Assembly (NCBI GenBank): GCA_030651765.1
Contig: JAUSBY010000012.1
Span: 187,501-251,500, forward strand
DNA: 64,000 nucleotides
Direction: 5' to 3'
Origin: Coriobacteriia bacterium
GTDB lineage: Bacteria; Actinomycetota; Coriobacteriia; Anaerosomatales; Anaerosomataceae
The notes under the pieces are model-generated. The model was given only the letters and a program-made list of their open reading frames with translations. It was not told the DNA's origin and did no database searches. The translations under genes were made by a program, and so were the position numbers. Below, piece after piece: positions 40,460 to 50,344 of the stretch. Each line of letters opens with the position of its first letter. Position 1 is the stretch's first letter.

Positions 40460-41500
40460 TCAGTCGCTCTCGACGAGGCGTGTATGGCAGAAGCTGCAGT
40501 ACGGAGCTGAATGGCATGTCAGACAGTAATCGGCACCCTCGTCGATGACCTCGACGCTGTGCTGCTCGATCCACGCGCCTGTCAGAGGCTCATACGACGT
40601 GTGGTGGCACATCGTGCACAGATCCGGTCCTCCGCTATGGCACGAGGTACACACTGCGGGGTCGCGCTCCGCCACCACCGCATGGCCCTCGGCTCCGGCA
40701 GACCACCTCTCGGGATGTGGCATGGCAAGTCCGTGGCAGCCGTCACAGTAGCTTTGCTCGTGACACATCGTGCACAGCGCTGCGTCATCCTCGGAGACAT
40801 CCCCGTGGCCGCGCGCCCACGCCGACGCCATGTGCGTCTGCGGCAGTGGCTCGTAGTCGGCGGGATGGCACGTGGCGCACCCGGTGTCGGCGTCGGGATA
40901 CTCCGGCGTCCCGTGACACGTGTAGCACTGCCCCATGAGCGACAGGGGGCCACCGCGCGTCGGCGACGGATGCGCGGTGCGCACGTGGCACGACACGCAC
41001 GAGCCGTTTCTCTTAGCGTGCTCAACGTGGTCGATCAGGATGCGGTATCCCGAGGTAGCCGTGCGGTTGGGGTCGTGACACTGCAGACACACGTCATCAG
41101 ACACCGGCTCCGCGTCTGCTGCGGGAGCGTCGACCGGATCAGCGAAGTCACCCGAGACGTGCGCCGCCACGTCACGCGCGAGCAACGCGGCGCGTCCCGC
41201 CACCCTCGTCGGCAACTCGTACCACTCGGTGGGAGCCTGGTGGCATTTCACGCACGTCACGACGGTGTGCGCGGACTCGGCCCAGCTTGCCGCCCGCAGC
41301 TCCATCTCGTGGCACGCGAAACAGACTCCAGGCGAGGACGTTCCAAGGTCGAAGGCGATAGCGAGCACAAGGATGCCGACGACGACGGATACCGCGATGC
41401 GAACCGTCGCGGGAACGGAGCGAAGGACGGAGCGCGCGCGACCACCAGGCGGCATCGCGGCTGTCGACTCGTCTGTGGTGACCGGTGTGTCGTGCTCCAC
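40460..41500 (-). CDS. Dodecahaem c-type cytochrome with NapC/NrfH-like N-terminus
   Basis: A 346-residue membrane-anchored cytochrome. A basic cytoplasmic start and one membrane segment (about residues 33-52) lead to SSPGVCFACHEMELRAASW, which resembles the first haem of NapC/NrfH quinol dehydrogenases. Twelve CxxCH motifs are present: CFACH, CVKCH, CLQCH, CVSCH, CYTCH, CATCH, CTMCH, CDGCH, CTSCH, CTMCH, CLTCH, CSFCH. No non-standard motif is seen. GTG 41500 has AGGAG 7 nt upstream. It is the last gene of the seven-gene electron-transfer operon and probably passes electrons from the membrane outward. The terminal acceptor is not evident. Confidence 0.9.
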   Translation of the reverse strand: MEHDTPVTTDESTAAMPPGGRARSVLRSVPATVRIAVSVVVGILVLAIAFDLGTSSPGVCFACHEMELRAASWAESAHTVVTCVKCHQAPTEWYELPTRVAGRAALLARDVAAHVSGDFADPVDAPAADAEPVSDDVCLQCHDPNRTATSGYRILIDHVEHAKRNGSCVSCHVRTAHPSPTRGGPLSLMGQCYTCHGTPEYPDADTGCATCHPADYEPLPQTHMASAWARGHGDVSEDDAALCTMCHEQSYCDGCHGLAMPHPERWSAGAEGHAVVAERDPAVCTSCHSGGPDLCTMCHHTSYEPLTGAWIEQHSVEVIDEGADYCLTCHSAPYCSFCHTRLVESD

Positions 41501-41510
41501 GGCGGCTCTC

Positions 41511-42344
41511 CTACTCGACGAGTTCGAGGGTCGGGTCGAGGTTCAGTGGCGGTACGACGCCGTGACACCGGATGCAGAAGTCGCTCTCGTGGCAGGCCTC
41601 GCAGTTGCGGTGTTCGGCAACCCGGTCACCGTGGACCGCGCGCCAGTCGCTCGTGTGCGAGCGGGGGACGTCCCTGTGGCAGTCGGCGCACCAGTCCTCT
41701 TTCCACTTGTGGCAGGTGACGCACTCGGGGTCGCCCGCTTCGGCAGCGTGCGTGACGAGCCAGTCGACCGTGCTGTGGCTGTCGGGCGCCGCCTTTTGCG
41801 TGTGACACGCCGTGCACGCGTCCTTTGCGACGTCCCCGTCGTGGCAGCGGAGGCACTCGATCATCGGCGGGGTGTGCTTGCCCTCGGGACTGAGCTCATG
41901 CACGAGGTAGTTGTGGCACTCGACGCAGTCCATCTTGAGGATCGTGATGTGTGCGCGGTGCGGGATCTGCAAGTCGCCTTTGGGAGAGATCGTGCGCAGG
42001 TCGCTGTGACACTCGAGGCACGCGTCGTTGGTAGGCATCGCGAAGTAACCCGGTTCGCGAGACCCTGCCACCACCGACTGGTAGAACTCCCCCACCAACC
42101 GCGCGCGGTAAAGCGCCCGGGGGATCGGCCCGGGAGGGACATGACACCCTTCGCATCCGGCCTCCAGGTGCGTCGACGACGACCACGGGACGTACTGCTC
42201 GCCGAGGGCAGGATAGCGGCTGAAGAAGCCCGGCCGCGACGCCAGGACACCCGGGAGGATGATGAGGACGAACACGGCCAACATGACGAGACCGGCTCGA
42301 GCGAGCCGACCGCGCGTCAGCGCAGCGGACGTGTGTTTCTTCAT
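41511..42344 (-). CDS. Nonahaem c-type cytochrome, membrane anchored (paralogue 3 of 3)
   Basis: A 277-residue cytochrome with an N-terminal membrane anchor (about residues 14-36) and nine CxxCH motifs: CEGCH, CLECH, CVECH, CLRCH, CTACH, CVTCH, CADCH, CEACH, CIRCH. After the anchor, RPGFFSRYPALGEQYVPW and the following STH...GC-EGCH segment match the two upstream cytochromes, showing common descent. ATG 42344 overlaps the preceding stop as TGATG; ATG 42353 is an alternative with GAGGAG 11 nt upstream. The haem domain should sit outside the membrane. Function is inferred: electron relay from the NrfD module. Confidence 0.88.
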   Translation of the reverse strand: MKKHTSAALTRGRLARAGLVMLAVFVLIILPGVLASRPGFFSRYPALGEQYVPWSSSTHLEAGCEGCHVPPGPIPRALYRARLVGEFYQSVVAGSREPGYFAMPTNDACLECHSDLRTISPKGDLQIPHRAHITILKMDCVECHNYLVHELSPEGKHTPPMIECLRCHDGDVAKDACTACHTQKAAPDSHSTVDWLVTHAAEAGDPECVTCHKWKEDWCADCHRDVPRSHTSDWRAVHGDRVAEHRNCEACHESDFCIRCHGVVPPLNLDPTLELVE

Positions 42345-43117
42345 CAGTGGCATTGGTTGCAGAACTCCTCGCCACCGTGGCACACGGTGCAACCGTCACC
42401 GCGGATGCGCGCACTGACCGCGTGGCCCGTCTTCCAGTTGCCGACGTGCGACGCGGGGCGCTTCTCGTGACACTCGGCGCAGTAGCCGGGCGTCCAGTCA
42501 TGGCAGGCGCCACAGTCCTCGGACTCGGCCATCTGCCCGTGGAGCACAAGCCAGTCCTCGGCCATGTGCGTATCGGGAGCATCCTTGCGCGTGTGGCACT
42601 TGATGCACTCGTCGGTGGCCGAGTCGCCGTCGTGGCAGAGCGCCAGACACGTCTCCATCTCCGGGCGGTTGAACCCGCGCCGGTTGAACGAGTGCACGAG
42701 GTCTTCGTGGCAGGTGACACACTCCATGCCGAGGACCTCGACGTGTGCGCGATGCGGGATGAGCAGGTCACCGCTCGGCGCAACGCTCCGATAGCTCGTA
42801 TGGCACTTCTGGCACGCGACCCGACGCGGGGCCTTGAGCAGGTTCGTGTCGTCCGGACCGCTGATGAGTTGTGAGTAGAACGCGGGGACAGACGCGGACG
42901 TGAACGACACGACACCGCTCACGCCGGGCTCGATATGGCACCCGGCGCACGAGATGCGCGAGTGTGTGGACGTCTCCCAGTGGTCCATCCGCAGGCCGAG
43001 CGCCTGGTAGCGCCGGTAGTAGTCGGGCTGCAGCGTTGAGATCACGGGGACGAGGATGGCGAGCACCACGAGGATCACGACTGCCGCCACTCCCCCGATG
43101 AGCAGACGGCGGCTCAC
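42344..43117 (-). CDS. Nonahaem c-type cytochrome with one CX3CH motif (paralogue 2 of 3)
   Basis: A 257-residue cytochrome with an N-terminal anchor (about residues 6-28). Eight canonical motifs (CAGCH, CQKCH, CVTCH, CIKCH, CGACH, CAECH, CTVCH, CNQCH) and one CX3CH (CLALCH) are present. The CX3CH lies exactly where the next paralogue has a normal CLRCH. The protein ends on the His of the last haem motif, with no residue after it. QPDYYRRYQALGLRMDHW after the anchor matches its neighbours. GTG 43117 is chosen because GGAG lies 6 nt upstream; the longer frame overlaps the preceding gene. Confidence 0.87.
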   Translation of the reverse strand: MSRRLLIGGVAAVVILVVLAILVPVISTLQPDYYRRYQALGLRMDHWETSTHSRISCAGCHIEPGVSGVVSFTSASVPAFYSQLISGPDDTNLLKAPRRVACQKCHTSYRSVAPSGDLLIPHRAHVEVLGMECVTCHEDLVHSFNRRGFNRPEMETCLALCHDGDSATDECIKCHTRKDAPDTHMAEDWLVLHGQMAESEDCGACHDWTPGYCAECHEKRPASHVGNWKTGHAVSARIRGDGCTVCHGGEEFCNQCH

Positions 43118-43119
43118 CT

Positions 43120-44136
43120 CTACTCCATCTCCTTGAACTGTCGGTGACAGTCGTCGCAGTACGCCTGCTCGTGACACTCGATGCAGCGCGGATCGTCCAG
43201 TTCCGAGGTGTGGTTCTTGTGACGGCCGATCCACGCCGTCACCGGTCCGTGGAACGCAGGACGCTCGCGGTGACACTCGCCGCACTCACCCTCGTCCTGG
43301 TGGCAGAGCAGACACCGGTCGCGGCCCCTGAGTGCCTCGGTGCCGTGGAAGTCCTCGGTCCAATCGTCTCTCACGTGCAGGACCTCGATCGACTTCATGC
43401 TCACCTCGATGGGCAGCCCGTCGAAGACCGGTCGCTCACCGGTCGTGTGGCACTGCTGACACTCGGCCACCGTGTGACACCCCTCGAGGCAGGCGTTCTG
43501 GCCCGTGGCCCTGATCACGGCCGGGTGCTCGGTGCGCCACTGCTCGTTGGACTCATGGAGCACGTGATGGCAGTCGTAGCACTGCTCGGCAGCCTTCGTG
43601 CCCACATGGCAGCCGTACGCCACGCAGACACCGGAAAACGGCATCTCCTTGTGCTTGTCCAGGTACGTCTCGAAGTGCGCCGTCCACTTGTGGCAGCCGG
43701 TGCATGGCCGCGTCTCACTCGCAACCCGCGCGTGCGCGGGGTGCGGAATCCGCGCGTTGCGGCTCGCGTCGATGCTCCAGTCGTTCACGTGACAGGACAG
43801 GCACGCGTCGTTGGTTGGCGCATCGAACGTGAAGTACTGCGGAGTCGCGGTCGTCTCGATCAGACCCGTGTAGAAGTCGGCCACCAGCTCGAGGCCGTTG
43901 ACGAGCACCTGCGTCTCGTGGCACGTCCGGCATCCGATGCCCTCGTGCGCCGAGTCCTCGAGATTGACGTAGCGCCGCTCGAGCAAGTGGTAGCGCGAGA
44001 AGAACTCCGGCGTGGACGTCGCCACCAGCGGCACCGCCACACCGACGATGGCCGCCGCGATGACAACCGCGACCGCTACGCCCACGTAGCGGTACATGCG
44101 CGTCACTGAGTCTGGGCGTGTGCCGGGGGCCTTCAC
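43120..44136 (-). CDS. Undecahaem c-type cytochrome with CX3CH and CX4CH motifs (paralogue 1 of 3)
   Basis: A 338-residue cytochrome with an N-terminal anchor (about residues 17-40). Nine canonical motifs are seen: CRTCH, CLSCH, CTGCH, CYDCH, CQQCH, CLLCH, CGECH, CIECH, CDDCH. Two more are expanded: CVAYGCH (CX4CH) and CLEGCH (CX3CH). TPEFFSRYHLLERRYVNL after the anchor is the shared paralogue signature. GTG 44136 is chosen, 7 nt after the NrfD stop, with a weak GGTGAG; a TTG at 44157 inside the NrfD gene is the alternative. Being next to NrfD it may be the first electron acceptor. Confidence 0.88.
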   Translation of the reverse strand: MKAPGTRPDSVTRMYRYVGVAVAVVIAAAIVGVAVPLVATSTPEFFSRYHLLERRYVNLEDSAHEGIGCRTCHETQVLVNGLELVADFYTGLIETTATPQYFTFDAPTNDACLSCHVNDWSIDASRNARIPHPAHARVASETRPCTGCHKWTAHFETYLDKHKEMPFSGVCVAYGCHVGTKAAEQCYDCHHVLHESNEQWRTEHPAVIRATGQNACLEGCHTVAECQQCHTTGERPVFDGLPIEVSMKSIEVLHVRDDWTEDFHGTEALRGRDRCLLCHQDEGECGECHRERPAFHGPVTAWIGRHKNHTSELDDPRCIECHEQAYCDDCHRQFKEME

Positions 44137-44143
44137 CGAAGGC

Positions 44144-45397
44144 TCACCCGACCTCAAGCGCCTGCTCGGGCGCGTGGCTCGCGAGCACGACCTGGTCGGG
44201 CTCGGCGCTGTCCTCCTCGGGCACCCTGAGCGGCAGGACCTTGGCCGAGAGCGTCATGATGAGCAGGCCGACCGCAAGCAGGCCGAGGGCGATGAGGACC
44301 TCCACCAGGCTCGGCAGGTACGGCGCACTGTACTGGCCGAGCGGATCGACCGCGAAACCCATGGCCATGAGCGAGTAGCGCTTGAGGAAGATCGCGACGA
44401 CGTACATCACCGATGCGGTGATCTGGACCGCGGGCAGGTGTCGCGTCGATCGTCCCGCAAGCAGCGCGAAGGCGCCGAGGCCGAGAACGAGGACGGGGAG
44501 GAACGCGATCGCATACTCCCCGGTGAAGAACTCGGCCAGGCGCAGCGCGTGTCCCGGCTTGGCCGACGTCGGCCAGAACACGGTCAGGATCTCCACCGCG
44601 AGCAAGAACAGGTCGATGATGATCACGGTGGCGAGCAGCGTCGACAGGCTGCGGAACATGCTCGGCTTGAACTTCATCGCACCGATGCGCTGCATGATGT
44701 ATGCGCATATGAGCAGAAGCGCAACGCCCGAGGCAGTGGCCGAGGTCAGGAAGATCGGCACCATAACTGCGGAGTTCCACAGCTCGCGCGACTTGTTGAG
44801 CGATAGCACGAACGCCGTCGTGGTGTGCAGGTAGACGGCGAACGGCAGCGCGATGAGCGTCATCCGATGCGCGAGCTTGTGTCCGCCTTTGCCGGTGATG
44901 AGGATCCACAGGTCGACGAAGCAGATGATCATGTAGATGTTGGCCGCGCTACCGGTGTAGATGAACGGGGAGTTGAAGTTGGGCGTGAGCAGCATCCACA
45001 CCGCACGCCACGGACGCTCCATGTCCGTGATGATGCCGAGCAGCGCCATCATGACGAGCACGCCGGCCTGTAGTACCGCAAGCCGCGACAAGGGCGCGAA
45101 CTGCTTGGCGTTGAACAGGTGGACGCTCGCGTAGACGACAAGACCACCCGCCGAGAGGCCGACGTAGTACATGTAGTTGGTGAACCACAGGCCCCACGGG
45201 TAGCTGTCGCGCATCGCCATGACCGAGCCGCCGTGGGTGAGCAGGGTGGCCCACGCTATGACGCCGAGCCCGATGACGGTCACGAGCAGCGAGACGAACG
45301 CCCAGTAGCGCGGGCCGGCGGTCCTGAGCGCACCGAAGTCGAGGTCGACGCCGATGAGCCGCTTCACGCCGGGACGCGATATCGCCTTCTCAGCCAT
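44144..45397 (-). CDS. NrfD/PsrC-family quinone-interacting membrane subunit
   Basis: A 417-residue integral membrane protein with about nine or ten helices. NrfD/PsrC proteins exchange electrons with menaquinone next to an Fe-S partner. Family-like features are the first helix region PRYWAFVSLLVTVIGLG, SYPWGLWFTNYMYYVGLSAG, and LLGIITDMERPWRAVWMLLT. A charged tail ends the protein. ATG 45397 lies 6 nt after the Fe-S gene. Together with that gene and the tetrahaem gene it resembles the core of Psr/Nrf/alternative complex III modules. Direction of electron flow is not settled by sequence. Confidence 0.92.
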   Translation of the reverse strand: MAEKAISRPGVKRLIGVDLDFGALRTAGPRYWAFVSLLVTVIGLGVIAWATLLTHGGSVMAMRDSYPWGLWFTNYMYYVGLSAGGLVVYASVHLFNAKQFAPLSRLAVLQAGVLVMMALLGIITDMERPWRAVWMLLTPNFNSPFIYTGSAANIYMIICFVDLWILITGKGGHKLAHRMTLIALPFAVYLHTTTAFVLSLNKSRELWNSAVMVPIFLTSATASGVALLLICAYIMQRIGAMKFKPSMFRSLSTLLATVIIIDLFLLAVEILTVFWPTSAKPGHALRLAEFFTGEYAIAFLPVLVLGLGAFALLAGRSTRHLPAVQITASVMYVVAIFLKRYSLMAMGFAVDPLGQYSAPYLPSLVEVLIALGLLAVGLLIMTLSAKVLPLRVPEEDSAEPDQVVLASHAPEQALEVG

Positions 45398-45403
45398 GTC
45401 GCA

Positions 45404-46300
45404 TCACCCCACGTACCAGATCATCGGTTCGGTCCCATACTCTTCCTTGAGGCGCCAGACACGGCGCGTCTTGAGCAGGATCGAGACCTCGCTGTCCGGG
45501 TCGTTGAGATCGCCGAACTTCCTCGCGCCCACCGGACACGCCTCGGTGCACGCGGTCGTTCCGCCCTCACGCGTCCTGTGGATGCAGAACGTGCACTTCT
45601 CGATCACGCCCTCCTTCTCGTGCAGCGGCACGTCGGGGTTGATCTCGGCCTCGGCGATCTCCGGCTCCACCCAGTTGAAGTGCCGGGCGCCGTACGGACA
45701 CGTGACGATGCAGTTGCGACACGCGATGCACTTCTCGTAGTCGATGACGACGATTCCGTCAGGATCGCGCCACGTCGCCGTCACCGGACAGCCGTACACG
45801 CACGGGGGCTTCGCACACTGCATGCACTGGACCGGCATGTACCACTTGTCCGGATCGCCGCCGTGGTCGTAAGCGAGGCTCGCGTGCTCGACGTCGACCT
45901 TGCCTTTGTCCATCTCGAGCACCTGGATGTAGGTGAAGCCCGAGTTGCGGCCGATGTTGTTCTCCTTCACACATGCATAGACGCAGCGGCGACAGCCGAT
46001 ACACGCTTTGACGTCGATGACCATCGCCCACTTCTCGTCGCCCGGTGGCTCGGCGTAGTGGACTGTCTTGCCGGGGTAGTTGACCGCCCCGTCCTCTTCG
46101 ATGACACCGGACAGTGACTCGTTTCCGGGAACACCGCCTTCGGTGGCCTGTGCCGAGGACACGAGCGCGGGTACCGCACCGGCGAGAACGAGTCCGGCGG
46201 TGGCGCCAACGCCGCCGAGGAAGGTCCTCCGGGACAGGGTGCACCCCTCGGGCAGGTCCCGACGCGGCTGTCCCGCGGATCGCGTGCTGTCTTCGCTCAT
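45404..46300 (-). CDS. Tat-exported 4x[4Fe-4S] ferredoxin-like subunit (PsrB/NrfC/HybA type)
   Basis: A 298-residue electron-transfer subunit. The Tat signal LSRRTFLGGVGATAGLVLAG sits at about residues 23-42. Four Cys clusters follow: CIGCRRCVYACVKEN, CMQCAKPPCVYGCP, CIACRNCIVTCPYGA, and CTFCIHRT with ACTEACPVGA. This matches the PsrB/NrfC family that docks on NrfD outside the membrane. ATG 46300 overlaps the tetrahaem stop as ATGA. It lies 6 nt before the NrfD gene. Export through Tat places the complex on the outer face of the membrane. Confidence 0.94.
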   Translation of the reverse strand: MSEDSTRSAGQPRRDLPEGCTLSRRTFLGGVGATAGLVLAGAVPALVSSAQATEGGVPGNESLSGVIEEDGAVNYPGKTVHYAEPPGDEKWAMVIDVKACIGCRRCVYACVKENNIGRNSGFTYIQVLEMDKGKVDVEHASLAYDHGGDPDKWYMPVQCMQCAKPPCVYGCPVTATWRDPDGIVVIDYEKCIACRNCIVTCPYGARHFNWVEPEIAEAEINPDVPLHEKEGVIEKCTFCIHRTREGGTTACTEACPVGARKFGDLNDPDSEVSILLKTRRVWRLKEEYGTEPMIWYVG

Positions 46301-47013
46301 CGCTTGAACCTTCCCAGGATCAGGTAGCCGAGCATACCGGCGGATACGACCGCGCCGAGCGCCGTGAGTATCGCGAGCCACGCCGGGGTGAGAACGGCCG
46401 GCGGCGTCGGCGGTCCGGCCAGCGGCTTGAACGGCAGCCACTCCCCGACCGCGCGAACCTCCATCCCCGTCCCCTGGAACGGAGGCAGGGCGCCGACGTA
46501 GATCCACGACGGCGTGTGCGGGTCGTGACAGCCGGCGGCGGAACACTTCGGCTCGTTCTTGCCGTGGACTCCCACCTGCCACTCGCGGTACTTCTCGAAA
46601 TGGCACCGCTGGCAGACGCGTGACACGTCACCGGTGACGTCAACGAACGTGCCGTCGGCGAGGAGCAGCATGCCGGGGTTTTCCGAGGGATCGTCGTGAC
46701 ACGCGAGGCACGCGGTGTCGCCCTCGCCTAAGATGTCGTGTACCTCGAGTTCAACGACGTGCTGCGTCATGCCGATCGGTAGGGCGCGCGACGGCTGACC
46801 GTCTGCGCCGAGCGTGACCGGATGGCATTGGGTGCAGGGGTGGAAGGCAAGCTCCCCGGTGGCCGACTGTCCCGCCAGCGCGCGGGGGATGATGAGCGCA
46901 GTCAGCGCGATCGCGGTGAGCACGAGCACCGCGGCCCTCGCACGTACCGTGCGACACGCCGACTTTCGGGAGTGGGACGGTCCGTGCTCGAGCGTCGCTT
47001 CTATGGTGCTCAC
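46297..47013 (-). CDS. Tetrahaem c-type cytochrome with N-terminal signal and C-terminal membrane anchor
   Basis: A 238-residue cytochrome and the first gene of the operon. An N-terminal signal segment (about residues 26-48) precedes four haem sites: CTQCH, CLACH, CQRCH and an expanded CSAAGCH (CX4CH). A Pro-rich linker and a C-terminal membrane helix (WLAILTALGAVVSAGMLGYL) follow, with a short basic cytoplasmic tail (GRFKR). The topology resembles cytochromes that sit with NrfC/NrfD partners. GTG 47013 has GAGGG a few nt upstream. It is divergent from the response-regulator gene across about 170 bp. Confidence 0.88.
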   Translation of the reverse strand: MSTIEATLEHGPSHSRKSACRTVRARAAVLVLTAIALTALIIPRALAGQSATGELAFHPCTQCHPVTLGADGQPSRALPIGMTQHVVELEVHDILGEGDTACLACHDDPSENPGMLLLADGTFVDVTGDVSRVCQRCHFEKYREWQVGVHGKNEPKCSAAGCHDPHTPSWIYVGALPPFQGTGMEVRAVGEWLPFKPLAGPPTPPAVLTPAWLAILTALGAVVSAGMLGYLILGRFKR

Positions 47014-47096
47014 ACCACCCTCGTCGCCGTGGACGCTACAGTGGCACTGACACTAGCAGTACCCCGGAAACTGACGATTCACGCAGCGTTGGCGTC

Positions 47097-47114
47097 TTGT
47101 TAGGGTTATGTTTG
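47097..47114. promoter_or_regulatory. 11-bp-periodic direct repeat (PhoB/PhoP-type box) between cytochrome operon and response regulator
   Basis: TGTTAG (47098-47103) and TGTTTG (47109-47114) are spaced 11 bp apart, the geometry of OmpR/PhoB-family sites. The second repeat lies 17 bp before TATTCT (47132-47137), so it overlaps the -35 of a probable response-regulator promoter. The reverse strand reads CAAACA-N5-CTAACA toward the cytochrome operon. Confidence 0.5.
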
Positions 47115-47180
47115 CGGCCTTTCGGGCACGGTATTCTATGCTTGACGAGACCGTGTCGCGCCTGCGAGGAGTACGCGCCC

Positions 47181-47855
47181 GTGAAGAAGATCCTGGTGGT
47201 CGACGACGAGGAGTCCATCCTCAAGATCGTGGAGTATGCACTGTCCGAGGCGGGCTACGAGGTCCACGTCGCCCGCGACGGCAGTGGCGCCGAGTTCATC
47301 TTCGAGCAGGTCCAGCCGGATCTCGTCATCCTCGATGTCATGCTGCCGGGCAAGTCAGGACTCGATATCGCCAGGGATCTGCGCGCGACCTCGGGCGTCC
47401 CCATCGTCATGCTCTCAGCCCGCGGCGATGAGGTTGACCGCATCCTCGGACTCGAGTTCGGTGCCGACGACTACGTCACCAAGCCGTTCTCGCCCCGCGA
47501 ACTCGTCAGCCGCGTCAAGGCGATACTGCGCCGAGTGGAAGGCGCACCAGCCGAGCGGATCGCGGTCGGCGACCTTGAGATCGACACGCAGTCACGCCAG
47601 GTGAAGATCGGCGGCGAGCCGGTGCACCTCACCACCTCGGAGTACGGGATCCTGCTGCACCTCGCGAGGCACCCGGGCAAGGCGTTCTCCCGGCCGGCGA
47701 TCCTCTCGGCGCTGTGGGACGAGAACCCCGTCGGCGACGAGCGTGCTGTGGACGTCCACGTCCACAACATCCGCGAGAAGATCGAGGCCGACCACAAGAA
47801 TCCCACGTACTTGCTGACCGTTCGTGGGTTCGGCTACCGGCTGAGGGAGCCGTAG
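47181..47855 (+). CDS. OmpR/PhoB-family response regulator
   Basis: A 224-residue two-component regulator. The receiver domain starts [14 protein letters not shown], the phospho-acceptor Asp is in [15 protein letters not shown], and the switch Lys is in [13 protein letters not shown]. The C-terminal winged helix includes [17 protein letters not shown] and the recognition part [16 protein letters not shown] 47181 has GAGGAG 9 nt upstream and removes a non-conserved leader. The kinase gene follows after 3 nt, so they form a pair of the PhoPR/ResDE sort. It is divergent from the cytochrome operon, with a probable binding box between. Confidence 0.95.
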
Positions 47856-47858
47856 GCC

Positions 47859-49619
47859 GTGGCTGGCCGCCGCCGAGGCTCGATCCGCCTGTGGCAGACC
47901 GAGCTGTTCATCGTCGTCATCGTGGTCGCGATCCTGATCCTGTCGGGGTCACTTTCGGCCGGGCTGAAGGCCACACTGACGCGCATGGCGGAGTCGAGCG
48001 AGCTGCGCAACGCCTCGGCACTCGCGCAACGTCTCGAAGCGAGCCTCCCCCTCGGCGTTGGTGGCGCCGCTGAGGTGCGGACCGTGCTCGGCGAGTACCG
48101 CGACATCTACGGTGGCGGCATCTGGGTGCACAACGCCGAGGGCGAACTGGTGGCATCGGCCTACGACACCGCGCCGACCGCCGCGGTCCTGGAGTCCGCG
48201 CTGCTGTGGGGGCTCGATCAAGACACGCCCCACGTGACGAGCGACCTGCGCACCAACGGATGGATCGTCGCGTCTCATCCTATCGCGGGAACCAGCGACG
48301 GACCTGCCGGCGTCGTCGTCACGGCAAGCAGCGCGGACCAGCCCGCCGCGATCCTGCGCTCGGTGCGCGACCGGCTGTGGGTGACCTTCTGGGTCTCGCT
48401 CGCCATTGCCGGCCTGCTCGGCTTCACGTTCTCGGAGATCATGAGCAGGCGCATCCGCGCGATGTCGGAAGCTGCCGCAGCGATGGCGGCGGGCGACTTC
48501 GAGCAGCGCCTCAAGACCGGATTCGTGCCCGACGAGATCCAGGACCTCGCCGAGTCGTACAACCAGATGGCGTACAACCTCGGTGCCGCCTTCAGCGCGA
48601 TCCAGGAGAGCCGCCAGCAGATCGCCGCAGTGGTCGAGTCCATGGCCGAGGGCGTGCTCGCCCTCGACGTGACAGGCGCCGTCCGGGTGATCAATCCCGA
48701 GGCCGTGCGTCTTCTGCATGTCAGCGCGGACGAGGCACGCGGGATGCCGATCGAGGAGATCACGGCGGACGGCGGCGTGACCGGTGCGGTACGGAGCGCG
48801 CTTCAGGGGCAGAGCACCGTCGAGACCGTCTCGCTCGGCGACCGGATGGTCCGCCTTCACTGCACGCCGCTGCTCGACACCGACGACGATGTTGAAGGGG
48901 CCGTGCTGCTGCTTGCCGATGTGACCGATCAGCACCGGATGGAGGAGGCGCAGGCGCGGTTCGTCGCCGACGCGAGCCACGAGATGCGGACGCCGATCGC
49001 CGCAATCAAGGGCATGCTCGAGCTGCTCGACGACGGCGCCAAGGACGTGCCTGACGTATGCGACGACTTCATCCACACCATGCAGCTCGAGGCCGACCGT
49101 CTCGGACGCCTCGTCGCCGATCTCCTGACGCTCGCGCGCCTCGATGCGGGAAGTCTCGAACTCACGCGCGCGCCTGTCTACGTGACCGATCTTCTCGGCG
49201 ACGTTGCTGGCGTGATGCGAACGCTCGCCGAGCAGGCAGGCGTCGAGATCGCAGTGGACGCGCCCGATGACGACGTGACGGTGCTCGCCGACCGCGACAG
49301 GATCGTGCAGGTGCTCCTGAGCTTCACCGACAACGCGCTCAAGCACTCGGCCGAAGGCACGACGGTGAATCTCGTCGCGCACGCGGCTCAGGATCGCGTG
49401 CGGCTCAGCGTCACCGACGAGGGGCTGGGGATCGAGCCCGACCAGGTCGAGCGCGTCTTCGAGCGCTTCTACCGTGCGGATTCGGCGCGTGGAGGAACCG
49501 GCACCGGCCTCGGCCTCGCCATCGCGAGGGAGATCGTCGAGGCCCACGGCGCGACCATCGAGGTCGAAACCGGGCCGCGGTCCGGAACGACCTTCAGCTT
49601 CAGCCTGCCGGTAGCCTGA
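47859..49619 (+). CDS. PhoR-like sensor histidine kinase
   Basis: A 586-residue membrane kinase. The first membrane segment is at about residues 11-33, an extracytoplasmic sensor region spans about 34-165, and the second segment is at about 168-192. HAMP (about 193-245) and PAS (about 258-365) domains follow. The phospho-His is in FVADASHEMRTPIAAIKGML. The ATPase domain has LLSFTDNALKHSAEG, TDEGLGIEP and GGTGTGLGLAIAREI. GTG 47859 lies 3 nt after the regulator stop. The layout TM-sensor-TM-HAMP-PAS-kinase is that of PhoR/WalK/ResE. The signal cannot be told from sequence. Confidence 0.94.
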   Translation: MAGRRRGSIRLWQTELFIVVIVVAILILSGSLSAGLKATLTRMAESSELRNASALAQRLEASLPLGVGGAAEVRTVLGEYRDIYGGGIWVHNAEGELVASAYDTAPTAAVLESALLWGLDQDTPHVTSDLRTNGWIVASHPIAGTSDGPAGVVVTASSADQPAAILRSVRDRLWVTFWVSLAIAGLLGFTFSEIMSRRIRAMSEAAAAMAAGDFEQRLKTGFVPDEIQDLAESYNQMAYNLGAAFSAIQESRQQIAAVVESMAEGVLALDVTGAVRVINPEAVRLLHVSADEARGMPIEEITADGGVTGAVRSALQGQSTVETVSLGDRMVRLHCTPLLDTDDDVEGAVLLLADVTDQHRMEEAQARFVADASHEMRTPIAAIKGMLELLDDGAKDVPDVCDDFIHTMQLEADRLGRLVADLLTLARLDAGSLELTRAPVYVTDLLGDVAGVMRTLAEQAGVEIAVDAPDDDVTVLADRDRIVQVLLSFTDNALKHSAEGTTVNLVAHAAQDRVRLSVTDEGLGIEPDQVERVFERFYRADSARGGTGTGLGLAIAREIVEAHGATIEVETGPRSGTTFSFSLPVA

Positions 49620-49649
49620 ACAGTTGGGCCGGATACCCCTTCGGTGAGC

Positions 49650-49666
49650 CTAACAAGACCCTAACA
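49650..49666 (+). promoter_or_regulatory. Second 11-bp-periodic direct repeat, upstream of a membrane-protein gene
   Basis: CTAACA (49650-49655) and CTAACA (49661-49666) are exact copies spaced 11 bp apart. They match the box between the cytochrome operon and the regulator when that is read on the minus strand; both contain CCCTAACAAG. It lies about 105 bp before the start at 49772 and is probably a target of the neighbouring regulator. Confidence 0.5.
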
Positions 49667-49771
49667 AGGCCAACACCGCCTCCGAACCTGCTGCGCTCGG
49701 ATCGGGGCCACAATCCCTGTAGGAGATGCGGAGGCCACGACCCCCGCTCGGCTACCGGGAGGTAGAAGATC

Positions 49772-50344
49772 ATGGAACTCGCGTTTGCAGCTTTCCTCAC
49801 GATCGTTACGGCGGTCAGTGCCGCCGCGCTGGTCATCGGCGTACCGCTCGCTTTCGGCCTGATGGCCTACGACATCGTCCAGTCGCGCAAGGCCCGCGTG
49901 TTCGAGGTCGAGTCGGCGCCCGCGCACATCGCCATCGAACGTGGCGTGGCACGTGCGTTCGTGATCCTCGGTGCGGCGTTCTGGTCCGTCGCGACCTTCG
50001 TCGAGGCGTACTCCGCCGGGACGTCGGGCGCCGGCGAGGCCGCGCTTACCGCCCTGATCCCACTCGGCGCATCACTCGTGACCCTCGTCGTCGGCTGGTA
50101 CTGGGAGCGTCTGACCGCAGCTGTGCTCATGCTCGGCGCGATCGGCGTGGTTGCCTACGGCGTCGTCTACGGCTTCGGCGGACAGACCTGGATCATCCTC
50201 ACGGCCATGCTCATCGGTCCGATGATCACCGCCTCGGTCCTGTTCTGGCTCGCACGCCGCGAGCAGGAGGCCTACGAACGCGCAACGGCGCTCAGCCCGC
50301 AGCTGGCCTTCGCGTTCGCCGCCAGGAGCACGCTCGAGGGGTAG
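49772..50344 (+). CDS. Multi-pass membrane protein of unknown function
   Basis: A 190-residue protein with about five membrane segments (roughly residues 5-30, 60-80, 88-108, 113-133, 138-160) and a cytoplasmic C-terminal tail. I do not recognise a family and see no catalytic motif. ATG 49772 has GGGAGGT about 9 nt upstream. It follows the PhoR-like kinase gene by 150 bp, and that gap contains the direct repeat also found before the regulator gene. This suggests membership of the same regulon. A hairpin terminator follows. Confidence 0.8.
   Translation: MELAFAAFLTIVTAVSAAALVIGVPLAFGLMAYDIVQSRKARVFEVESAPAHIAIERGVARAFVILGAAFWSVATFVEAYSAGTSGAGEAALTALIPLGASLVTLVVGWYWERLTAAVLMLGAIGVVAYGVVYGFGGQTWIILTAMLIGPMITASVLFWLARREQEAYERATALSPQLAFAFAARSTLEG

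Follow-up and report, generated by a model that had tools for sequence, protein, structure and literature searches.

How electrons travel from quinol to the outside of Gram-positive cells, and of actinobacterial cells in particular, is poorly known. We approach this question through a locus in a 64,000-nucleotide stretch of DNA (hereafter, the window; GenBank assembly GCA_030651765.1, contig JAUSBY010000012.1, positions 187,501 to 251,500) from an uncultured, Gram-positive, subsurface member of the Anaerosomatales (OPB41, Coriobacteriia), whose genome comprises 2.26 Mb and is 97% complete. On the minus strand of the window, positions 40460–47013 hold a seven-gene operon, with the gene order J-O-P-C1-C2-C3-N as read from the open reading frames in the sequence, that encodes an NrfD-family membrane subunit, an iron–sulfur (Fe-S) protein, and five multihaem cytochromes. 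What does such an operon do when it carries so many haems and no recognizable reductase? We consider it probable that its products constitute an NrfD-type quinol:cytochrome c oxidoreductase that performs electron transfer only and feeds chains of multihaem cytochromes. The locus offers a clearly delimited candidate, conserved and apparently under regulation, in a subsurface order that is widespread, and it provides testable sequence predictions for haem ligands, quinone residues, and an operator.

P and O resemble the quinone and iron–sulfur subunits of NrfD complexes

P (44144–45397, minus strand) belongs to the NrfD/PsrC family (PF03916, 112.9 bits), has 8 predicted hydrophobic helices, and is the only NrfD match in the genome. 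In alignments of its homologues, Asp125 is conserved in 29 of 30 sequences and Arg340 in 29 of 29, while position 143 is Ser in 23 of 30 and Ala in 7. On the basis of published residue roles, Asp125 is the equivalent of HybB D109 and DsrP D106, the acidic residue of the quinone site, Arg340 is the central arginine of the ion gate, and Ser143 is the quinone-site serine (PMC8076601). The family match and these conserved residues predict that P oxidizes quinol or reduces quinone. The adjacent gene encodes O (45404–46300, minus strand), a 4×[4Fe-4S] protein (Fer4_11, 73 bits) with a twin-arginine translocation (Tat) signal, SRRTFLGG; because O is exported by Tat, its clusters are predicted to lie outside the membrane.

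Neither subunit reaches the curated cut-off of its Dsr or Qrc model. The top NCBIfam models are DsrO for O (184 bits, cut-off 200) and DsrP for P (147 bits, cut-off 350), and the Qrc models score lower (QrcC for O, 151 bits, cut-off 400; QrcD for P, 65 bits, cut-off 570). In a database search, the closest NrfD proteins outside the clade were approximately 29–35% identical and came from Chloroflexota, Eggerthellaceae, and Bacillota; most are encoded in operons in which a gene of 800–1000 residues precedes the Fe-S gene, the layout of Psr-type molybdoenzymes, a classification made by size and position alone. In a phylogenetic tree, the NrfD proteins of J-O-P type are separated from the molybdoenzyme type as a distinct group (97/95), and those linked to large cytochromes fall together with those of a sister family, f7, described below. 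DsrP, which falls outside the J-O-P clade, and HybB and NrfD of E. coli sit on long branches, so their placement is unsure.

The cytochromes carry 45 haem motifs and about one candidate ligand per haem

The five cytochromes are J (46297–47013), a tetrahaem protein with a signal peptide and a C-terminal membrane helix in a DsrJ/NrfB-like position; C1 (43120–44136), with 11 haems and an N-terminal anchor; C2 (42344–43117) and its paralogue C3 (41511–42344, start ATG at 42344 or 42353), each anchored and with 9 haems; and N (40460–41500), a NapC/NrfH-like protein with 12 haems, all on the minus strand. The true starts of C1, C2, and C3 are internal to the listed open reading frames, a minor correction. 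Together these proteins contain 45 haem-binding motifs, of which 41 are CxxCH and 4 are longer (CX4CH in J and C1, CX3CH in C1 and C2), distributed as 3 CxxCH plus 1 longer motif in J, 9 plus 2 in C1, 8 plus 1 in C2, 9 in C3, and 12 in N. Shuffling the residues of each protein gave a mean of 0.04–0.31 motifs and a maximum of 5. We scored conservation in alignments of 23–30 homologues per cytochrome and found that the motif cysteines and histidines are kept in essentially all of them, even though some homologues are only 34–50% identical overall. A first-pass annotation of the window, made from the letters alone, had described a seven-gene minus-strand operon with about 45 haem sites, haem counts of 4, 11, 9, 9, and 12, and a Tat-exported Fe-S subunit; its coordinates proved right, and the motifs, their conservation in homologues, and the SRRTFLGG signal bear out the description.

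We counted conserved histidines outside the motifs and found 4 in J, 11 in C1, 8 in C2, 8 in C3, and 11 in N (42 in total). At least one conserved methionine is also present in each of C2, C3, and N (M159, M166, and M66 among them), giving 42 histidines and at least 3 methionines as candidate distal ligands for 45 haems, approximately one per haem. The CxxCK haem motif does not occur in the operon cytochromes, C1–C3 match no catalytic cytochrome family, and Cytochrom_C552 has no match in the operon. Since there is one conserved candidate ligand per haem and no CxxCK, no obvious open catalytic haem is predicted, and the candidate ligand set fits a pure electron wire. The earlier proposal of an NrfD, Fe-S, and multihaem module that lacks a catalytic reductase was thus upheld by the PF03916 and Fer4_11 matches and by the lack of CxxCK and Cytochrom_C552.

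C1–C3 appear to have lost the quinol-site haem that N retains

Profile comparisons revealed homology among C1, C2, and C3 and between each of them and N. N matches Cytochrom_NNT (40 bits) and NrfH in the PDB (E 4e-9) and has an N-terminal anchor; it scores 55 bits against the 134 bits of the NrfH equivalog model, which makes it a relative of NrfH and not NrfH proper. The NrfH-type haem 1 motif, CxxCHxM, is kept in N, with its methionine, M66, present in 17 of 17 sequences (alignment A3). This motif occurs in N alone: in profile alignments, C1 and C2 read FFSRY or YYRRY at that place, and because these residues replace CxxCHxM, the haem of the quinol site appears to be gone from them; we predict the same loss for all of C1–C3. 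The possibility that C1–C3 are themselves quinol dehydrogenases was dropped, as the haem-1 motif is missing. J, C1–C3, and N are each predicted to have one membrane anchor and outward-facing haem domains.

N also differs from the other genes in its position, which varies between genomes. It follows C3 in approximately 13 of 23 loci and in the others may lie upstream, be divergently oriented, occur twice, or be missing, so that it counts as a movable accessory outside the core. The first-pass annotation had set three paralogous cytochromes beside a NapC/NrfH-like one. The relationship stands, and in fact extends to all four, with the refinements that C1–C3 lack haem 1 and that N is an accessory.

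Module swaps in relatives hint at the direction of electron flow

If C1–C3 are wires, relatives that pair J-O-P or the wires with other partners may indicate what each part does. In the sister family f7 (two genomes), J-O-P is followed by a 660-residue cytochrome that scores 132 bits against Cytochrom_C552 (NrfA) and has a CxxCK haem. Because J-O-P is joined there to an NrfA-like reductase, the arrangement suggests that J-O-P delivers electrons to cytochromes, in f7 to a reductase, and it is our best hint as to direction.

The wires are exchanged as well. In other Actinomycetota classes (loci L171–L173), pairs of C2/C3-like cytochromes with 10–12 haems lie beside a 7-haem cytochrome and a b561-type cytochrome b; L177 and L179 have the same layout. 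The membrane protein of L177 has no Pfam match, and that of L173 scores under the Pfam cut-off. In L175, from another class of Actinomycetota, cytochrome b6, subunit IV, and a Rieske protein are encoded beside two cytochromes of 11–12 haems. These neighbors, b561 and b6/IV/Rieske, are quinol-oxidizing module types. A broader reading, which we hold only tentatively but regard as a serious possibility, is that Actinomycetota possess a plug-board in which NapC/NrfH-derived wires of 9–12 haems without the quinol haem combine with interchangeable quinone modules, and J-O-P with interchangeable outlets, to give several quinol-to-surface routes under two-component control.

Two of these loci deserve mention in their own right. 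L171 and L172 are single runs of many multihaem genes (7–12 haems each) and b561-type genes, and L175 stands out as a bc-type quinol module that has multihaem outlets and lies next to a response regulator 60% identical to that of the window.

A proposed mechanism and its rivals

In the mechanism that we propose, quinol would bind near the outer face of the membrane to P, which keeps the residues for quinone chemistry and ion conduction, and electrons would pass from P through the four clusters of O to the tetrahaem J. From J they would enter the membrane-anchored C1–C3 (29 haems), which would conduct them outward as wires that have no catalytic haem; N would be either a further wire or a second, optional point of entry. 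From the wires, electrons would move on to further multihaem cytochromes, of which the genome encodes several at other loci, and ultimately to an external or wall-located acceptor. The direction of flow, order of transfer, identity of the quinone, physical complex, acceptor, and energy coupling are all inferred. The genome contains a menaquinone-pathway gene (PF02621) and the genes for c-type cytochrome maturation.

Several points weigh against this mechanism. Respiratory quinones were not detected in two cultured Anaerosomatales (PMC9686372), and in 9 of the 29 genomes with the module a search limited to PF02621, a marker outside the classical Men pathway, gave no match. AlphaFold yielded poor models of C1 (predicted local distance difference test score 54, predicted template modeling score 0.34) and N (47 and 0.26), from which we draw no conclusion. 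That the seven proteins form one complex or face an external acceptor is, moreover, a supposition of the model, and NrfD complexes can run in the quinone-reducing direction, as in Qrc. Of relevance to the first point, the genome that we tentatively assign to Parvivirga hydrogeniphila (strain Es71-Z0120; G012) has a PF02621 gene despite the lack of detected quinones in the isolate. The carrier may be a quinone present in low amount, or the module may be active only under conditions not yet grown.

A Qrc-like quinone reductase would reverse the scheme, with electrons from outside entering through N or C1–C3 and J to reduce quinone at P with charge separation; the donors could be hydrogen or formate acting through cytochromes, a syntrophic partner, Fe(II), or a cathode. 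In its favor, O and P have additional matches to QrcC (151 bits) and QrcD (65 bits), and Qrc, an oxidoreductase between cytochrome c3 and quinone, is built from subunits of these types (PMC8076601); in some syntrophs, moreover, CbcBA has been predicted to operate in reverse (PMC10553843). We nevertheless find this direction unlikely because the nearest module swap pairs J-O-P with an NrfA-like reductase, a QrcB-like subunit is not in the operon, and the top family models are DsrO and DsrP rather than those of Qrc. That same swap also speaks for a different rival, a dedicated reductase of a soluble acceptor with its active site in one of C1–C3, as in NrfA, MccA, or OTR: the NrfA-like cytochrome of f7 occupies the position after P, and a reductase is likewise the terminal component in NrfD/Fe-S/cytochrome operons, Nrf and Mcc among them. 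However, C1–C3 have neither a catalytic family match nor CxxCK, their conserved histidines and methionines equal the haems in number, and they are homologous to the NapC/NrfH-like N, so we judge a hidden active site to be quite improbable.

We give slightly less credence still to a specific, self-complete respiratory conduit for the reduction of Fe(III) or minerals. The order includes an Fe(III) reducer and isolates that are rich in multihaem proteins (PMC9686372), and the architecture is like that of the Geobacter Cbc complexes implicated in metal reduction. Yet there is no NrfD match in G012 or in G009, the genomes tentatively matched to the Fe(III) reducer Es71-Z0120 and to Anaerosoma tenue M08DHB, respectively, and a complex iron–sulfur molybdoenzyme (CISM)-type Fe-S or anchor subunit is reported to be absent from Es71-Z0120 (PMC9686372). 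Growth on Fe(III) by relatives that lack the module argues against its necessity, and a Gram-positive wall is probably too thick for wires of 9–12 haems to span. The first-pass annotation had suggested a cell-surface conduit through a thick wall and growth with Fe(III) as a check. The first suggestion survives in part, in that anchored cytochromes can act as wires while 9–12 haems probably cannot cross the wall alone, and an Fe(III)-specific role is weakened because the genomes tentatively matched to the cultured isolates lack the module. We retain, as the probable reading, a quinol:cytochrome c oxidoreductase that hands its electrons to further cytochromes.

The operon is probably controlled by a divergent two-component system

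J and O overlap in the sequence ATGA, C2 and C3 share TGATG, and the remaining gaps are approximately 11 bp or less; because the genes overlap or sit this close together, the seven are likely transcribed as one unit. The functional locus extends to about 50344 on the plus strand through parts that the first-pass annotation had not included, namely a two-component system, a DUF7670 protein, and a shared operator. Divergent from the operon are genes for an OmpR/PhoB-type response regulator (47181–47855, plus strand; PhoB/MtrA-type) and a HAMP-PAS sensor histidine kinase (47859–49619, plus strand). Between J and the regulator lies a conserved, operator-like element of 44 bp (47076–47119, plus strand) that repeats in 11-bp steps (ATTC..ATT..TGTTAGGGTT.TGTTAGCGG) and is common to 16 of 16 examined loci with the divergent regulator. 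An 11-bp repeat spacing is typical of regulators of the OmpR/PhoB family. The element scores 51 bits, and its 20-mer core occurs once in the window, against a chance expectation of none; approximately 118 kb of other stretches of the same genome contain no match of at least 10 bits. Where the regulator genes have moved (L047, L048, L051, L053, and L054), the element is still upstream of J. The pair probably controls the operon through this operator, with control by this particular regulator being a prediction.

Orthologues of the kinase co-occur with the operon: among 61 genomes of the order, 23 have both, 6 the module only, 3 the kinase only, and 29 neither (Fisher p 2e-8, not corrected for relatedness; in some module-only genomes the kinase lies on a broken contig). 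A DUF7670 membrane protein (49772–50344, plus strand) follows the two-component genes in most related loci and is possibly a sensor partner or a subunit of the module. Upstream of its gene is a second, weaker copy of the element (49645–49688, minus strand; 16 bits), which scores 42 bits at the matching place in L055. A consensus scan for promoters and terminators gave nothing above chance. Downstream of the operon are tRNA-Leu, tig, clpP, and clpX.

The module is patchily distributed

Apart from the window, 23 fetched loci contain the core J-O-P-C1-C2-C3 as an uninterrupted run; one of them comes from another class and the rest from Anaerosomatales. NrfD is present in about half of the 61 genomes of the order, and within the family of the window in 10 of 27; because it is patchy even at this level, the module is often gained or lost. 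Strong matches to the 11-haem C1 are confined, within the class, to Anaerosomatales, and otherwise occur in one sampled genome of another Actinomycetota class. This genome, which has the full module (L095 = L180), is a mine-derived record named 'Slackia heliotrinireducens isolate FI88_64_8', a name that is probably wrong. Genomes with and without the module are not distinguished by the molybdoenzymes or NiFe hydrogenases that they also encode, and PF02621 gives no clear distinction either.

Six other loci in the genome of the window together encode at least 16 more multihaem proteins. Three of the proteins, which have 18, 24, and 25 haem motifs (L202 1054–4251, L203 6571–8685, and L204 5479–7242), are candidates for the outer part of the electron chain. 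We also observed, in the same genome, an in-frame TGA in the gene for a NiFe hydrogenase large subunit (L207 9751–9906, contig C14 near 330367–331878), within the C-terminal motif DP(TGA)IGCQVH, where [NiFeSe] hydrogenases have selenocysteine; most genomes of the order show this single TGA as well. Molybdenum cofactor riboswitches (RF01055) lie upstream of molybdopterin oxidoreductase genes (L205 11909–12033 and L206 6156–6279, contig C1). Because a family search found one in-frame TGA in these genes, they possibly encode selenocysteine formate dehydrogenases.

Comparison with known systems

The operon shares parts with several characterized complexes and, on the features compared, does not belong to DsrMKJOP, Nrf/Mcc, or Qrc. 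Like DsrMKJOP, it has a small cytochrome, an Fe-S protein, and an NrfD protein in the same order, with DsrO and DsrP as top models; it differs in its four extra large cytochromes, and membership was rejected as the scores are under the cut-offs and neither DsrM nor DsrK is found among the operon or scanned flanking genes. NrfABCD and MccACD likewise combine a cytochrome with an Fe-S/NrfD quinol dehydrogenase, and they were rejected because the window operon has no NrfA- or MccA-like catalytic subunit, which only f7 has. QrcABCD and NhcABCD also join a cytochrome to Fe-S and NrfD subunits at the quinone pool but differ from the window operon, which has several anchored multihaem proteins; with QrcC and QrcD under their cut-offs and QrcB not in the operon, Qrc was rejected as well. 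PsrABC-type molybdoenzymes (CISM) are the nearest relatives of the NrfD and Fe-S sequences outside the clade, and most of these relatives have a large gene of the size and in the place of the molybdenum catalytic subunit, whereas the window operon has no such gene.

Closer in kind are Cbc6 (CbcMNOPQR) and Cbc4 (CbcSTU) of Geobacter, which likewise join membrane subunits to multihaem cytochromes without a catalytic reductase and are putative menaquinol:ferricytochrome c oxidoreductases proposed to link the quinol pool to cytochromes (PMC11434368, PMC10989804). Compared by description, Cbc6 has published haem counts of 10 in CbcN and 5 in CbcR and no known set of four NapC/NrfH-like wires of 9–12 haems. 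The pair of 7-haem and b-type cytochromes in other actinobacterial classes is similar to Geobacter CbcA/CbcB by composition alone (PMC10989804). Groups 4 and 5 of the menaquinone:cytochrome c oxidoreductases of Methanoperedenaceae also cluster NrfD, 4Fe-4S, and multihaem genes and are proposed to oxidize quinol for metal-dependent respiration (PMC7327174, PMC7082337), but they are archaeal, the cytochromes of their expressed NrfD operon have 3 and 6 haems, and no wire paralogues are reported for them. The synteny comparison that the first-pass annotation had called for returned no characterized reductase with these genes and a known type of architecture, that of Cbc6 and the Methanoperedens NrfD clusters.

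This cluster is not described in the literature that we searched. The paper on Anaerosomatales lists multihaem clusters and never mentions NrfD (PMC9686372), and a 2018 survey of quinol oxidases for extracellular respiration found nearly none in Actinobacteria, with no CymA, no CbcL, and one ImcH (PMC6295460). We conclude that the kind is known, namely the NrfD/Fe-S/multihaem quinol:cytochrome c oxidoreductases of Geobacter and Methanoperedenaceae, and that what is new to the searched literature is the occurrence, in an order of Gram-positive bacteria, of four NapC/NrfH-derived cytochromes with 9–12 haems each, of which three lack the quinol haem, together with the swapping of inlets and outlets in relatives.

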